NCBI GenBank assembly: GCA_040219085.1
Contig: JAVJTC010000035.1
Location: forward strand, 1-48,424
Reading direction: 5' to 3'
Length of the DNA stretch: 48,424 nt
From: Acidimicrobiales bacterium
Lineage (GTDB): Bacteria; Actinomycetota; Acidimicrobiia; Acidimicrobiales; JAVJTC01
The notes under the pieces are model-generated. The model worked only from the letters and a program-made list of their open reading frames with translations, was not told where the DNA came from and ran no database searches. Below, piece after piece: positions 42,181 to 47,376 of this stretch. Positions within the stretch are counted from its first letter, which is position 1. Every line of letters begins with the position of its first letter. The position numbers and the translations under genes were made by a program.

Positions 42181-42735
42181 TCAGGACTCGGTGATCGTCA
42201 CCGAGTCGATCAGCACGTCCTCGCGGGGACGATCACCCGGGCCGGTCTCGACCTTCTGCATACGCTCGACGATGTCGAGACCCTCAGTGACCTTTCCGAA
42301 CAGCGCGTACTGGGGCGGAAGGTTCGCTCCCGAGGGACCGCTGATGAGGAAGAACTGGCTCCCGTTGGTGTCGGGACCGGCATTGGCCATGGCAAGCGAG
42401 CCGATCTCGTACTCGCCGGCGGCAGGGAGTTCGTCTGCGAACCGGTAGCCGGGGCCACCCCGTCCGCTGCCCTCGGGGCATCCGCCCTGGCACACGAATC
42501 CGTCGATGATGCGGTGGAAGTTGAGACCGTCGTAGTAGTGGTAGCGAGCGAGGAACACGAAGTTGTTCACGGTCTTCGGCGCGCGCTGGGCGTCCAGTGC
42601 GATCTCGAGGGTGCCCAGTGACGTCGCCATCGAGGCGGTGTACGTCTTCGCCGGGTCGATGCACATCGGCGGCTCGCCGGAGAACTTGGTTGTACGCGGG
42701 CTCGACCCGTCGGGCTGGGGACACTCGATCGACAT
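42181..42735 (-). CDS. Peptidyl-prolyl cis-trans isomerase, cyclophilin type
   Basis: A 184-residue cyclophilin that speeds proline isomerisation. Active-site motifs are GLNFHRIIDGFVCQGG, RGGPGYRFADELP, GSLAMANAGPDTNGSQFFLI and YALFGKVTEGLDIVERM. The catalytic Arg (in FHR), Phe, Gln and the FF pair are all present. A 45-residue N-terminal extension precedes the domain, of the type found in actinobacterial PpiA-like proteins; no signal peptide is seen, so it is probably cytoplasmic. A strong GAGGAGG site precedes the ATG at 42735. Confidence 0.9.
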   Translation of the reverse strand: MSIECPQPDGSSPRTTKFSGEPPMCIDPAKTYTASMATSLGTLEIALDAQRAPKTVNNFVFLARYHYYDGLNFHRIIDGFVCQGGCPEGSGRGGPGYRFADELPAAGEYEIGSLAMANAGPDTNGSQFFLISGPSGANLPPQYALFGKVTEGLDIVERMQKVETGPGDRPREDVLIDSVTITES

Positions 42736-42795
42736 TGATCCTCCTCGTTCGGGTCGCCGACGCTACCCAGCCGAGACCCCCGCGCCACCGTCTGC

Positions 42796-42823
42796 TTGGC
42801 ATCCCAAACTGATCCGCTAGGAT
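42796..42823 (+). promoter_or_regulatory. Promoter of phaC
   Basis: TTGGCA (42796-42801), a 16-base spacer and TAGGAT (42818-42823) resemble a sigma-70 promoter. The phaC ATG follows 34 bases later. Confidence 0.4.
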
Positions 42824-42857
42824 CTCCAGCGATCCCCCCGAAAGGCTCGACGTTCCC

Positions 42858-44540
42858 ATGGCCAGCCAGAATCCGCTCTCCCCCTTCCTACGACAGCTCG
42901 ATCCTCTGTCATTCGCGAAGAGCCTCGCCGAGACCACCACGAGCGCCGCGCGTAAGCCCCGCGCCGTGGTCGACCTCGCGGCCACCACCGCATCGGGGTG
43001 GGTGCGTACCGGAATGTCCGCCGCCAACCTGCTCGTCACCGGCGACACCGAACCCCCCCGGCAGCCCGAACGCGGCGACCGCCGTTTCAGCGACGAGGCA
43101 TGGGAGAAGAACCCGGGCTACTTCGCACTCCTCCAGCTGTACCTGCTGGGTGAGGAACTCATGAACAAGGTCGTCGACGCCGCCGACTTCGACGACAAGC
43201 CCTCGGAACGCAAGGCCCGTTTCGCCGCCCAGTTGCTCGTCGACGCCCTCTCCCCCACCAACACCCTGCTCGGCAACCCGGCCGCCCTGCGCAAGGCGAA
43301 GGAGACCAACGGGGCGAGCCTCGCGAAGGGCTTCGCCACGTTCCTGCGGGACCTCGTCCAGAACCAGGGCTGGCCCCGCAAGGTGGACGCATCGGAGTTC
43401 ACCGTCGGGGTCGACATGGCGGCCACCCCCGGAAAGGTCGTGTTCCGGAACGACCTCATCGAGCTGATCGAGTACGCACCCCAGACCGAAGAGGTCTACG
43501 AGATCCCGCTGCTTCTGTCGCCGCCGTGGATCAACAAGTTCTACATCATGGACCTCGCTCCCGGTAAGAGCCTGGCGGAGTGGGCGATCCAGCACGGCCA
43601 TCGCACCTTCGCGATCAGCTACCGCAACCCCGACGCGTCCATGCGCGACATGTCCTTCGCCGACTACATGCACCAGGGGACCCGGGCCGCCATCGACGCG
43701 ATCCGTTCGATCACCGGCGCCAAGAAGGTGAACACGGCCAGCGTCTGCCTCGGCGGCACCCTCACGGCCATGGCTCTCGCCTACGAGGCCGGACGCAGGA
43801 ACCGGTCGATCAACTGTGCGAGCCAGATCGTCTCGCTCCTCGACTTCGAGGAACCCGGTGTCCTCGGCGCGTTCACCGACGACGGCACTGTGGAGATGCT
43901 CGAGGAGACGATGCGCGACAAGGGCTACCTCGAGGCCAAGGACATGGCCCGCACGTTCGACCTGTTGCGGGCCAACGATCTCGTCTTCAACTACGTGGTC
44001 AACAACTGGCTCATGGGCGAGGAGCCGCCCGCCTTCGATCTCCTCGCGTGGAACGACGACTCGACACGCATGCCGGCGAAGATGCACAGCGAGTACCTCC
44101 GCCAGTGCTACATGAACAACGACCTGTCGAACGCCCGCATGGTCGTGGATGGACGCACGCTGGACCTGTCCAAGGTCAAGAACGACGTCTACGTGCTGGC
44201 GACGGTCGGCGACCACATCGTCCCCTGGACCTCGGCCTACGTAGCAACCCAGCGATTCGGCGGGAAGAACCGGTTCGTGCTGTCCACTTCGGGCCACATC
44301 GCCGGCATCGTCAACCCGCCGAGCCCCAAGGCCAAGCACTGGGTGAACGAGGACCTGCCGGCGGATCCTGACAAGTGGCTCGACGGAGCCGAACTCGTCG
44401 AGAGCACCTGGTGGGAGGACTGGGCGGTCTGGATCGGCGAGCGCGCCGGGGACATGATCCCCGCCCCCACCGAACTCGGCACCGAGGAATTCCCGGCTCT
44501 GTGCGATGCACCGGGGACCTACGTTCTCGCCAAGTCGTGA
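42858..44540 (+). CDS. phaC: Polyhydroxyalkanoate synthase, class I
   Basis: A 560-residue alpha/beta-hydrolase-fold PHA synthase that polymerises 3-hydroxyacyl-CoA into storage granules. The lipase-like box reads TASVCLGGT with nucleophile Cys297. The remaining triad is Asp452 in ATVGDHIVPW and His480 in TSGHIAGIVNPP. YNPDASMRD-type, DYMHQGTRAAIDAIRSITG and LLAWNDDSTRMPAKMH are further family segments. Class I enzymes act alone (no PhaE/R partner), and the length (about 560-590) fits. The usual GYCVGGT box is SVCLGGT here, a moderate variation. The 3' end overlaps the next gene (GTGA). Lipid-granule genes follow, so this is a PHA operon. Confidence 0.9.
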   Translation: MASQNPLSPFLRQLDPLSFAKSLAETTTSAARKPRAVVDLAATTASGWVRTGMSAANLLVTGDTEPPRQPERGDRRFSDEAWEKNPGYFALLQLYLLGEELMNKVVDAADFDDKPSERKARFAAQLLVDALSPTNTLLGNPAALRKAKETNGASLAKGFATFLRDLVQNQGWPRKVDASEFTVGVDMAATPGKVVFRNDLIELIEYAPQTEEVYEIPLLLSPPWINKFYIMDLAPGKSLAEWAIQHGHRTFAISYRNPDASMRDMSFADYMHQGTRAAIDAIRSITGAKKVNTASVCLGGTLTAMALAYEAGRRNRSINCASQIVSLLDFEEPGVLGAFTDDGTVEMLEETMRDKGYLEAKDMARTFDLLRANDLVFNYVVNNWLMGEEPPAFDLLAWNDDSTRMPAKMHSEYLRQCYMNNDLSNARMVVDGRTLDLSKVKNDVYVLATVGDHIVPWTSAYVATQRFGGKNRFVLSTSGHIAGIVNPPSPKAKHWVNEDLPADPDKWLDGAELVESTWWEDWAVWIGERAGDMIPAPTELGTEEFPALCDAPGTYVLAKS

Positions 44541-45253
44541 ACGCCGCAAGGGCCTTCGAGTTCCGCGAGACCGCCGGACCCGCCGCGGGTCCGCCCCTGA
44601 TCCTCGTCAACGGGCTCGGCGCGTCGCAGCGGAGCTGGGACCGCCTCGTCGAGGAACTCGGATCCGACGTGTCCACCCTCCGATTCGAACTCCCCGACCT
44701 CGCTGGCGAGGTCCCGACCATCCGCATGCACGCCGACGCGGTCGCCGCGACCATGGACGAGGCCGGGATCGAGCGCGGCGTTCTCGCCGGCTGGTCCTTC
44801 GGCGGCCTCGTGGCCCAGGAGTTCGGCCGCCGTCACCCCGACCGTCTCGTCGGCCTCGCTCTCATCTCGAGTTCGACCGGGGCGGGCAGCTGGCCTCCCA
44901 CGGTGTGGGGCGCGGCTGAAGTCGCCGGGCTCGAGTTCATGCGCCACGTCAGGACCCTCCCCACAGGAGCGACACACCACGCGGCCCACGTGGCGGCCCG
45001 GTCCGTGGCCGTGATGCGGTGGACCAGCCTGCCGTGGCTCCACACCCTCGATGTGCCGGCACTCGTCGCCCACGGCTGGCTCGACCAGATCGTGCCCGTG
45101 GCCAACGCGTTCGTGCTCGCCTCGGCGCTCCCCGGCGCCGAGCTACAGCTCCGTCCCGACGGCCTGCACGATCTGGCACACCGTCGGCCCCGGTGGTTGG
45201 CGCCGAGGATCCGCCGCCTCCTGGAACGGGCCACCAGCCGAATTCCTGCTTGA
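44537..45253 (+). CDS. Alpha/beta hydrolase, probable PHA depolymerase-like
   Basis: A 238-residue alpha/beta hydrolase: oxyanion-region LILVNGLGASQRSWDRLVEEL, nucleophile Ser87 in LAGWSFGGLVAQEFGRR, Asp in HGWLDQIVP and His near the C-terminus (DGLHDLAHRRP). NGLGAS and GWSFGG are close to the intracellular PHA depolymerase PhaZ of pseudomonads (NGIGAN, GVSWGG). Coupled translation with phaC (GTGA overlap at 44537) supports a role in granule mobilisation. A general esterase cannot be excluded. Confidence 0.78.
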   Translation: MNAARAFEFRETAGPAAGPPLILVNGLGASQRSWDRLVEELGSDVSTLRFELPDLAGEVPTIRMHADAVAATMDEAGIERGVLAGWSFGGLVAQEFGRRHPDRLVGLALISSSTGAGSWPPTVWGAAEVAGLEFMRHVRTLPTGATHHAAHVAARSVAVMRWTSLPWLHTLDVPALVAHGWLDQIVPVANAFVLASALPGAELQLRPDGLHDLAHRRPRWLAPRIRRLLERATSRIPA

Positions 45254-45278
45254 CATTCCAAGCAGACACCCGTATGCT
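45250..45278 (+). promoter_or_regulatory. Strong sigma-70-type promoter of the phasin-like gene
   Basis: TTGACA (45250-45255), exactly 17 bases, then TATGCT (45273-45278). The -35 is a perfect consensus, rare in this GC-rich window. It predicts high expression, as expected for a granule coat protein. Confidence 0.75.
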
Positions 45279-45298
45279 AGGTATATCTAGCACGTGCT
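45275..45298. promoter_or_regulatory. Overlapping palindromes at the phasin promoter start site
   Basis: TGCTAG-6-CTAGCA (45275-45292) and AGCACGTGCT (45289-45298) are perfect dyads sitting on the -10 and the expected transcription start. A further GCTAGC lies at 45306-45311. A repressor bound here would block transcription; the XRE-type regulator at 46724 or an unlinked PhaR-like protein is the obvious candidate. Confidence 0.5.
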
Positions 45299-45393
45299 GG
45301 ATGGGGCTAGCGGTCCCGTCCGGGGCTCTTCAGCAGGCCCAGTGCAGATCACCGCCAACCCCCATCCGACATGCCCCCCCACGGAGACGAATA

Positions 45394-45687
45394 ATGAACA
45401 ACATCAACGAAATCAGCACCACCGTCCAGGACCAGGTCCTCCAGCTCGTGAAGATCAGCCAGGACACCATGCTCGCCGGGGCCAAGAACCTCGCCGACGC
45501 CGCGCAGAACATGAACCCCGCCGGCCTGCAGATCCCCGCGGTTCCCGGCATCGAGCAGCTCCCCTCGGAGTTCGTCGACGCCCCGTTCGAGTTCGCCGGC
45601 AAGCTCCTCGAGAACCAGCACTCGTTCATGAAGGCCCTCGCCGACACCTGGGCCCCCCTCCTGGAGACCGCTGACAGCGACTCCTGA
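45394..45687 (+). CDS. Phasin-like granule protein
   Basis: A 97-residue, largely helical protein without signal or membrane segment. NINEISTTVQDQVLQLVKISQDTMLAGAKNLADAAQNM is amphipathic and Ala/Gln-rich like phasins, followed by a Pro-containing link (PAVPGIEQLP) and a second helix ENQHSFMKALADTWAPLL. Phasins coat PHA granules and control their size. Position directly downstream of phaC and the depolymerase-like gene, with its own strong promoter, supports this. The ATG at 45394 has GGAGACGAATA upstream. Phasin sequences diverge widely, so the call rests on context and composition. Confidence 0.72.
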   Translation: MNNINEISTTVQDQVLQLVKISQDTMLAGAKNLADAAQNMNPAGLQIPAVPGIEQLPSEFVDAPFEFAGKLLENQHSFMKALADTWAPLLETADSDS

Positions 45688-45727
45688 GGCCGACCTGCCT
45701 AACCGCAGGTTTCCGATCAGATGACAT

Positions 45728-45758
45728 CGTGTCCGCCCGGGTTTCCCGGGCGGACACG
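45728..45758 (+). terminator. Perfect GC-rich terminator hairpin after the phasin gene
   Basis: Fourteen-base perfect arms (45728-45741 and 45745-45758) with a TTT loop, 40 bases after the phasin-like stop. The following bases are moderately AT-rich but not a T-run. Confidence 0.7.
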
Positions 45759-45774
45759 TATCAGATAGGTTCTC

Positions 45775-45806
45775 AAGCGCCTGCGAGACAAACTTCGCAG
45801 GCGCTT
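45775..45806 (+). terminator. Second hairpin before the dehydrogenase gene
   Basis: Twelve-base perfect arms, AAGCGCCTGCGA and its complement (45775-45786 and 45795-45806), with an 8-base loop. It ends about 60 bases before the next start, so it may be a second terminator or an mRNA structure of the downstream gene. Confidence 0.6.
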
Positions 45807-45867
45807 CGTGGTCCTGGAGTGGGACAGGGCTGACGGACACGACGCACACAAGGGAGTGAGCAAGCGA

Positions 45868-46722
45868 ATGACCATCAGCCGAGTCGCAATCATCGGGGGA
45901 GGCACGATGGGATCGGGCATCGCAGAGGTCTGCGCCCGGTCCGGCCTGGACACCATCGTGGTCGAGGTCCAGCCCGACTACGCCGAGTACGCCCGCGAGA
46001 GGATCGTGAAGTCTCTCGACAGCTCCCTCTCCCGTGAACGGATCACCGCCGAGGAGCGCGACGAGGCCGTCGGAAACCTCGGCTTCACCGTCGACATGGG
46101 TGACCTCGGCGACCGCGACCTCGTCATCGAGGCCGTGATCGAGTCCGAGGACGAGAAGCTCTCGGTCTTCGGTCGACTCGACAAGGTGACCCCCGAGCAC
46201 ACGATCCTCGCCACGAACACGTCGTCGATCCCGATCATCACGATCTCGTCGGCCACCGAGCGGCCTGACCGTGTCCTCGGAATGCACTTCTTCAACCCTG
46301 CGCCGGTCCAGCCCCTCGTCGAACTGGTCAGCTCACTACGGACCTCCCCCGACATCATCGACAGCGTCCAGTCTTTCTCCGAGGACGTACTCGGCAAGCA
46401 CGTCATCCGGTGTCGCGACCGCGCCGGGTTCGTCGTCAACCGACTCCTGATCCCCTACCTCCTCTCTGCCATCACGATGGCCGATTCGGGCCTGATCGCC
46501 CGGCCCGACATCGACGCCGGCATGAAGTACGGCTGCGCCCACCCGATGGGTCCCCTCGAGCTGTCGGACCTCATCGGCCTCGACACCGTCATGGCCGTCG
46601 CCGAGGTGCTCTACGAGGAGTTCAAGGAGCCGCTCTACGCGCCGCCGCCGCTGCTGCGCCGCATGGTCGCCGCAGGACACCTCGGCCGCAAGAGCGGTCA
46701 GGGCTTCTACGAGTACGCCTGA
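45868..46722 (+). CDS. 3-hydroxyacyl-CoA dehydrogenase (3-hydroxybutyryl-CoA type)
   Basis: A 284-residue NAD-dependent 3-hydroxyacyl-CoA dehydrogenase. The Rossmann motif is VAIIGGGTMGSGIAEVCARSG near residue 8, followed by IEAVIESEDEK and TNTSSIPI. The catalytic His is in LGMHFFNPAPVQPLVELV, and the C-terminal helical domain has GFVVNRLLIPYLLSAI and KYGCAHPMGPLELSDLIGLD. It interconverts acetoacetyl-CoA and 3-hydroxybutyryl-CoA. Beside phaC it could feed or drain PHA precursors, although (S)-specific enzymes need an epimerisation route to the (R) monomer. The start ATG at 45868 has an AGGGAGTG site; an in-frame GTG 12 bases earlier lies inside that site. Confidence 0.88.
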   Translation: MTISRVAIIGGGTMGSGIAEVCARSGLDTIVVEVQPDYAEYARERIVKSLDSSLSRERITAEERDEAVGNLGFTVDMGDLGDRDLVIEAVIESEDEKLSVFGRLDKVTPEHTILATNTSSIPIITISSATERPDRVLGMHFFNPAPVQPLVELVSSLRTSPDIIDSVQSFSEDVLGKHVIRCRDRAGFVVNRLLIPYLLSAITMADSGLIARPDIDAGMKYGCAHPMGPLELSDLIGLDTVMAVAEVLYEEFKEPLYAPPPLLRRMVAAGHLGRKSGQGFYEYA

Positions 46723-46723
46723 C

Positions 46724-47107
46724 ATGAGCGAGAACCGCGTCGGCGCCGACGCCGAGCCCGGGGCCAACCCGGACGACCGCTTCGGTGAGTACCTGCGCGG
46801 TCAACGCAAGCTCGCCAATCTGACGCTGCGCCAACTCGCCGACATGGCCGGCGTGTCCAACCCCTACCTCAGCCAGATCGAACGCGGCATCCACGTCCCG
46901 TCAGTACGCGTCATCAAGTCGATCGCCAACGCTCTCGACGTCCAGGCCGAGGTACTTCTCACCCATGCCGCCGGCATCGACGCAGACGACGACGACGACT
47001 CTTCGGCACCCGATACCGAGGCGGTCATCCGGGCGGACCCACGGCTCACCTCTCAACAGAAGCAGGCGCTGCTGCAGGTCTACCGGGGCTTCATCGGCGC
47101 CGAGTGA
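46724..47107 (+). CDS. XRE-family transcriptional regulator
   Basis: A 127-residue protein with an N-terminal Ala/Asp-rich arm, an XRE helix-turn-helix (LANLTLRQLADMAGVSNPYLSQIERGIHVPSVRVIKSIANALDV, residues 28-72) and a C-terminal acidic linker with short helical tail (LTSQQKQALLQVYRGFIG). This type is frequent next to actinobacterial PHA and fatty-acid genes. It starts one base after the stop of the dehydrogenase gene and is surely co-transcribed. It is a candidate regulator of the palindromes at 45275. Confidence 0.85.
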   Translation: MSENRVGADAEPGANPDDRFGEYLRGQRKLANLTLRQLADMAGVSNPYLSQIERGIHVPSVRVIKSIANALDVQAEVLLTHAAGIDADDDDDSSAPDTEAVIRADPRLTSQQKQALLQVYRGFIGAE

Positions 47108-47376
47108 CTCCGGCCGTCCTCGGCGCGGCGGTTCCGCAACGGCATCCACCGCTGGTGAGAGCCCGATTCCTAGTGTTGCCGCGTGGGGCGAATCCACTCG
47201 ACGGCGACGACGATGTCGTGTTCACGTTGTGACGTCACGTGGCGCGGAGCTTCGGGCGATCCGTGTTGGTCCTGCGGCGACCCGGCCGCGGTGATCGAAG
47301 CACCGACGTACCACGTCAAGGTGCCGGAGATTCGGGCCCGGCAGGCCGCGAGTTGAGCCGACGACGGATCAGGCGG

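Follow-up and report, generated by a model that had tools for sequence, protein, structure and literature searches.

A PHA gene block from an Acidimicrobiales bacterium probably encodes a PHA-granule counterpart of the MLDSR/MLDS system of Rhodococcus, that is, an autoregulated module in which an XRE repressor is paired with a phasin-like coat protein. The block lies in a window of 48,424 nt, the whole stretch of DNA that was analyzed (assembly GCA_040219085.1, contig JAVJTC010000035.1, positions 1 to 48,424 of the forward strand), and the host appears to store carbon as bioplastic (PHA) granules. This reading draws on features that can be read from the DNA itself: the order of the genes, two operators at the phasin promoter together with their conservation and rarity, the clade to which the XRE protein belongs, and a pair of hairpins.

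From these features we infer the following circuit. Two 18-bp operators, which cover the -35 hexamer and the start site respectively, would be occupied by the XRE protein, probably in dimeric form, and its binding would hold the phasin promoter low. As PhaC produced polymer, the surface of the growing granule, either bare or already coated, would pull the XRE protein off the DNA, and this release would bring phasin output into step with the amount of granule surface. At the hairpins past the phasin gene, only part of the transcripts would continue into the dehydrogenase and regulator genes (hbd and xre). Such partial read-through would yield much coat protein and little regulator, with the regulator under its own control.

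The PHA gene block

The block comprises five plus-strand genes that encode, in order, PhaC, an alpha/beta hydrolase, a 97-residue protein, a 3-hydroxybutyryl-CoA dehydrogenase and an XRE protein. The initial annotation had described a compact PHA block with phaC, hydrolase and phasin-like genes and an XRE regulator at its end. All of these genes are present and the XRE gene closes the block at 46724-47107 (+); the dehydrogenase gene, situated between the phasin and XRE genes, was absent from that gene list.

The first gene, phaC (42858..44540, +), encodes a PHA synthase of 560 residues (PhaC_N, E 2e-59). It is named class I-like because the class I model TIGR01838 is its best model by far and yet the score, 599 bits, falls slightly under the cut-off of 622.65. 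PHA synthases usually carry a lipase-like box of the form G-X-C-X-G; at residues 295-299 of this protein the box reads S-V-C-L-G. An alanine at the first place of the box has been reported for phaC3 of Rhodococcus jostii RHA1 (PMC2667194). The hydrolase gene (44537..45253, +, with a GTG start at 44537; Abhydrolase_1, E 3e-12) shares the 4 nt GTGA with phaC, in agreement with the overlap noted earlier. The label "PhaZ-like" previously given to its product is unproven, with scores far under the cut-offs of the depolymerase models TIGR02240 (56.1 versus 250.6 bits) and NF050089 (39.2 versus 300 bits); the best-scoring models are enol-lactonases. It is possibly a PHA depolymerase. At the GA14 locus of Rhodococcus ruber, a depolymerase-like gene is reported 3' of phaC (PMC2667194).

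The dehydrogenase gene (hbd; 45868..46722, +, ATG at 45868) encodes 284 residues and was assigned with NF005875, which scored 433 bits (cut-off 319) for a translation begun at 45871, one codon past the ATG. The XRE gene starts one nucleotide past it. Searches found no Rfam elements in 42600-47200 and no tRNAs in the window. Between the phasin and dehydrogenase genes, 3' of the former and on the plus strand, lie two strong, GC-rich hairpins with perfect stems of 14 bp (45728..45758) and 12 bp (45775..45806). Stems of at least 9 bp occur within 150 nt past the phasin stop in 33 of 40 relatives that have an XRE gene in the flanks (in some of them upstream of the phasin gene), compared with 4.8 in mononucleotide shuffles. 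The hairpins at 45728-45806 have no T run behind them and are thus not terminators of the classical kind; they would end part of the transcripts.

The XRE regulator and related systems

The product of the XRE gene (127 residues; HTH_3, E 4e-15) has HTH_3-type Pfam domains only and falls in a phasin/phaC-linked clade. The tree that defines this clade covers 66 of 136 hits and 122 columns, with duplicates, short hits and most Streptomyces rows left out, and many of its forks are open. With a support of 100/99 it separates 18 rows from a group of 48 that includes the window and in which 46 rows are linked to phasin or phaC. The 18-row group holds all of the HbhA/DUF2516-linked rows together with seven phasin-linked rows, and both Mycobacterium sp. 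SM1 and Actinomycetospora lutea have one XRE protein on each side of the split. All 10 XRE proteins in an alignment that covers both kinds carry the recognition stretch NPYLSQIERG unchanged. Two relatives, both distant, are found on plasmids.

In R. jostii RHA1, MLDSR (ro02105) is an XRE protein and MLDS (ro02104) is a droplet protein, described as a TadA/HBHA homologue (PMC6176652). The two are predicted to share an operon, and MLDSR is reported to bind two motifs, of 20 and 23 bp, with activation at low dose and repression at high dose (PMC5504291). Adiposomes compete with DNA for MLDSR, and lipid surfaces are described as sequestering it (PMC5504291). The same authors noted that further actinobacteria have putative homologues of MLDS and MLDSR. 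The window resembles this system in having two regulator-type motifs at the promoter, here as sequence sites. An XRE gene and a phasin-like gene are found together in the window and in most relatives, which would parallel the pairing of XRE regulator and storage-body coat protein if the 97-residue protein fills the coat role. The published MLDSR box, GNT(T/A)GCTNNTGCTANC, is in the same register as the arms of the window dyad; its fit to the two sites of the window is only 9/12 and 8/12, and a score of at least 9 is reached at 20 places in the window.

The two systems differ in context, which is that of lipid droplets in Rhodococcus and of a PHA synthase here, and in the coat protein, which is HbhA-like there and phasin-like here. 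They also differ in layout: the regulator and coat genes of R. jostii overlap in one operon, whereas in the window the coat gene comes first, followed by hbd and xre, with hbd and the two hairpins intervening. The window XRE protein lies outside the HbhA-linked clade, as judged from the XRE proteins of Mycobacterium sp. SM1 and Actinomycetospora and not from MLDSR itself. A second comparison is offered by PhaR/PhaP of Ralstonia and Paracoccus, in which the phasin gene is reported to be repressed and PhaR to bind PHA granules (PMC5658603). A phasin gene under a repressor would be common to both, the XRE protein taking that role in the window, but the regulator here is of the XRE/HTH_3 type and has no PhaR-type Pfam match.

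These comparisons bear on what the regulator senses. The XRE protein may be the regulator of the operators and yet answer a small molecule (acyl-CoA or copper) or its own amount instead of the granule surface, as would suit the description of Rv0474 as copper-responsive (PMC10961391), the short C-terminal part past the HTH, and an XRE sequence that bears no sign of granule binding. We regard this alternative as unlikely, although it retains some weight, given that the R. jostii XRE protein, when tested, was sequestered by droplets (PMC5504291) and that a coat-protein partner is kept beside this XRE clade. The surface of the PHA granule is the preferred signal for the module.

The 97-residue protein and its family

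The protein encoded between the hydrolase and dehydrogenase genes (97 residues; 45394..45687, +) is predicted to form a helical hairpin, with helices at residues 2-39 and 58-95 in an AlphaFold model of modest confidence (pLDDT 70, pTM 0.41). As a single sequence it has no match in Pfam, NCBIfam or the PDB, and its predicted fold has no match in the PDB; one PHROG match was returned with an E value of 0.11. Profile searches proposed PDB kin, most of them designed helical bundles, along with two weak matches at chance level; these were rejected. Matches to the protein were found in 41 of 148 genomes of the order (E up to 0.1), and a 12-row profile, with up to 12 candidates scored per genome, detected the family in at least 26 of 396 genomes of the phylum (E up to 0.001). 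The signature of the family is a C-terminal FDFAExLLxAQRxF-like stretch past a proline-bearing turn.

Known phasin families are matched weakly, and by relatives. Phasin_2 (PF09361) is the Pfam family with the largest number of matching relatives, yet these are only 4 of 42 (best E 0.0008). TIGR01985 is matched by 3 of 12 (best E 0.0039) or, at a stricter limit, by 1 of 42 (E 0.018), and a search with it gave no match in 146 genomes of the order. The likeness to these two families thus consists of small helical proteins and weak matches in relatives; the difference is that the window protein matches neither at all. The GA14 phasin of R. ruber, an actinobacterial phasin from a PHA locus (PMC5658603), is likened to the window protein by description only.

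Phasin_2 was also tried as a phylum-wide marker of the module and rejected, with 27 of 296 genomes matched and two of these above the cut-off. Among 25 Phasin_2-matching loci examined, an XRE gene was present in one (L201), beside an HbhA gene, and the phasin-side arrangement in none. At L201 the weak Phasin_2 match shares its locus with the HbhA gene and the XRE gene of the latter, which hints at a remote kinship of HbhA and phasins.

The initial annotation called the protein phasin-like and very divergent, perhaps representing a new subfamily. The first description is carried by gene context and by the weak profile matches of some relatives, and not by any phasin profile match of the window protein; in the second, the protein does escape the profiles, but it is widespread in the order. 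Judged by these sequence matches, it is a member of a wide, fast-evolving actinobacterial phasin-like family without a Pfam or NCBIfam profile of its own, and it is probably a granule-coat protein.

The gene neighborhood was compared among the relatives. At 20 of 29 loci of the order, the 1.5-kb flanks of the phasin gene contain an XRE gene of the same kind as that of the window, and the flanks of the other nine have none. In the phylum, such a gene is present at 20 of 27 non-duplicate loci. The phaC gene is near the phasin gene at L083, L084 and L087, and likewise in Nitriliruptorales (L002), Mycobacterium (L012) and Actinomycetospora (L034); phasin and XRE genes also occur together at many loci whose examined flanks contain no phaC. 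That phaC is not beside the module at all loci, and that the window protein has neither a profile nor a fold match, could also point to an unrelated small helical protein, for example a partner that holds or modulates the XRE protein. Such a non-coat role is distinctly unlikely in view of the nearness of phaC in the window and in the named genomes of several lineages, the weak Phasin_2 and TIGR01985 matches of relatives, and the pairing of kin XRE proteins with the droplet protein HbhA/MLDS. A coat function is thus the role retained for the protein in the proposed module.

Operators, their conservation and their meaning

The phasin promoter TTGACA-17-TATGCT (45250..45278, +; -35 at 45250-45255 and -10 at 45273-45278) has the hexamers and the 17-nt spacer described earlier, and was the best (10/12) of three sites in a scan of 4.9 kb for which 0.4 were expected. 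The stop codon of the hydrolase gene falls within its -35 hexamer. Operator 1, TGCTTGACATTCCAAGCA (45247..45264, 18 bp), lies over the -35 hexamer, and operator 2, TGCTAGGTATATCTAGCA (45275..45292, 18 bp), overlaps the end of the -10 hexamer and the expected start site. Two perfect dyads had been placed at the start site. The dyad at 45276-45291 is real and forms the core of operator 2, but it is perfect only in its 5-bp arms (GCTAG-N6-CTAGC), with one non-complementary pair in the full 16 bp; within the window CTAGN6CTAGC matches only here, on both strands alike, and it was absent from 100 shuffles. The other, AGCACGTGCT (45289-45298), is perfect and was dismissed as chance, since the window contains 89 perfect 10-bp palindromes, this one included, and the flanks of the operator sites of relatives do not carry it on. 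Operator 1 is a genuine second site that had been overlooked.

Only the two operators of this promoter, 28 nt apart, match the operator pattern TGCTW-N8-WAGCA exactly anywhere in the 3.77-Mb genome; another 19 places match with one mismatch. The control pattern, the same pattern reversed, occurs at 198 places but differs in make-up, and weight is therefore put on the small number of exact sites and on their adjacency. A weak operator-like site with two mismatches (42793..42810) lies 5' of phaC over a -35-like hexamer, TTGGCA. Among loci with a full 200-nt phaC upstream region, a site of this sort is present only in the window and in L002; tentatively, phaC might be coupled to the same regulator through it.

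Because the operator pattern had been derived by eye from the order set, the phylum set served as its test. With up to one mismatch, the operator was found in 21 of 28 members of the order set in 250-nt upstream regions (dinucleotide shuffles: mean 0.32, maximum 3) and in 17 of 27 members of the phylum set (mean 0.16, maximum 2); exact operators were found in 10 of the 27, compared with 0.01 in shuffles. Excluded from these counts were L108, in which no phasin was found, and, from the phylum set, L140, L153 and L156 (the window or duplicates). Phasin genes that bear the operator usually have an XRE gene near. Of 55 promoters, 27 have a -35 hexamer resembling TTGACA 15-17 nt 5' of the operator, and in these the operator includes the -10 hexamer, mostly TATAGT or TATACT. 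A second half-site, WAGC, 6, 8 or 10 nt past the -35 start accounted for 15 counts among these 27 promoters, and one at 10 nt, as in the window, for 9. Operator 2 begins 25 nt past the -35 start in the window versus 15-17 in relatives, so that the -10 hexamer of the window is TATGCT and operator 2 lies over the expected start. Between the -35 half-site and operator 2, the window has about 8 extra nt relative to the relatives.

A stricter form of the pattern occurs at nine places in 59 genomes of the order, and six of these, the window's included, adjoin a phasin gene. The three sites away from a recognized phasin gene (L169 and L172 near 1501, L176 near 978) are possibly further targets or chance occurrences. 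At XRE loci without a phasin neighbor, the operator was found with up to one mismatch, within 160 nt upstream, in 57 of 64 (0.45 in mononucleotide shuffles); these 64 are what remained of 80 after 16 were excluded by hand, and nearly all are streptomycetes and not independent. In Mycobacterium sp. SM1, a form of the operator with two mismatches is found at the XRE gene that adjoins the HbhA-like gene. In Streptomyces loci L007, L014 and L042, two overlapping operator-like dyads, 10 nt apart, lie 5' of the XRE match. Insofar as the dyad of relatives includes the -10 hexamer its conservation is partly that of a promoter, but it is very improbable that the dyads are a mere promoter constraint or the site of another regulator with the XRE gene a chance neighbor, since the pattern is set by the outer TGCTW/WAGCA arms, is kept before the phasin-less XRE genes, and is kept in the window although it no longer coincides with the -10 hexamer.

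The XRE protein is likely the regulator that acts at these operators. Its binding to the dyad at the phasin promoter, a guess of the initial annotation, is well supported by comparison, as the operator stands before homologous phasin genes across the phylum and before XRE genes that have no phasin neighbor, and is rare elsewhere in the genomes. The promoter-and-regulator part of that annotation is right, and better founded than could have been known from the window.

The matching of phasin supply to PHA is poorly described in Actinomycetota. In a 2008 survey of R. jostii RHA1, small genes near the phaC genes could reportedly not be told as phasins (PMC2667194), and a term search of a 2021 review of PHA regulation gave no match for XRE, MLDSR or Actinobacteria (PMC9049629). 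In the literature searched, most subscription journals being beyond reach, no paper was found that places a PHA phasin of an actinobacterium under an XRE regulator, which is no proof of absence. The conserved operator, the candidate regulator gene and the family signature make the question simple to pose by gel shift or granule proteome. On a broader view, for which we see an even chance, Actinomycetota have two ancient sister modules that share one operator code, XRE/HbhA for lipid droplets and XRE/phasin for PHA granules. On this view the XRE/phasin pair would fill the place of PhaR/PhaP in the phylum, where a counterpart has been missing, and would sense the granule surface directly, and the partner protein would constitute a large phasin family still without a profile. 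This would join bacterial fat droplets and plastic granules in one regulatory lineage.
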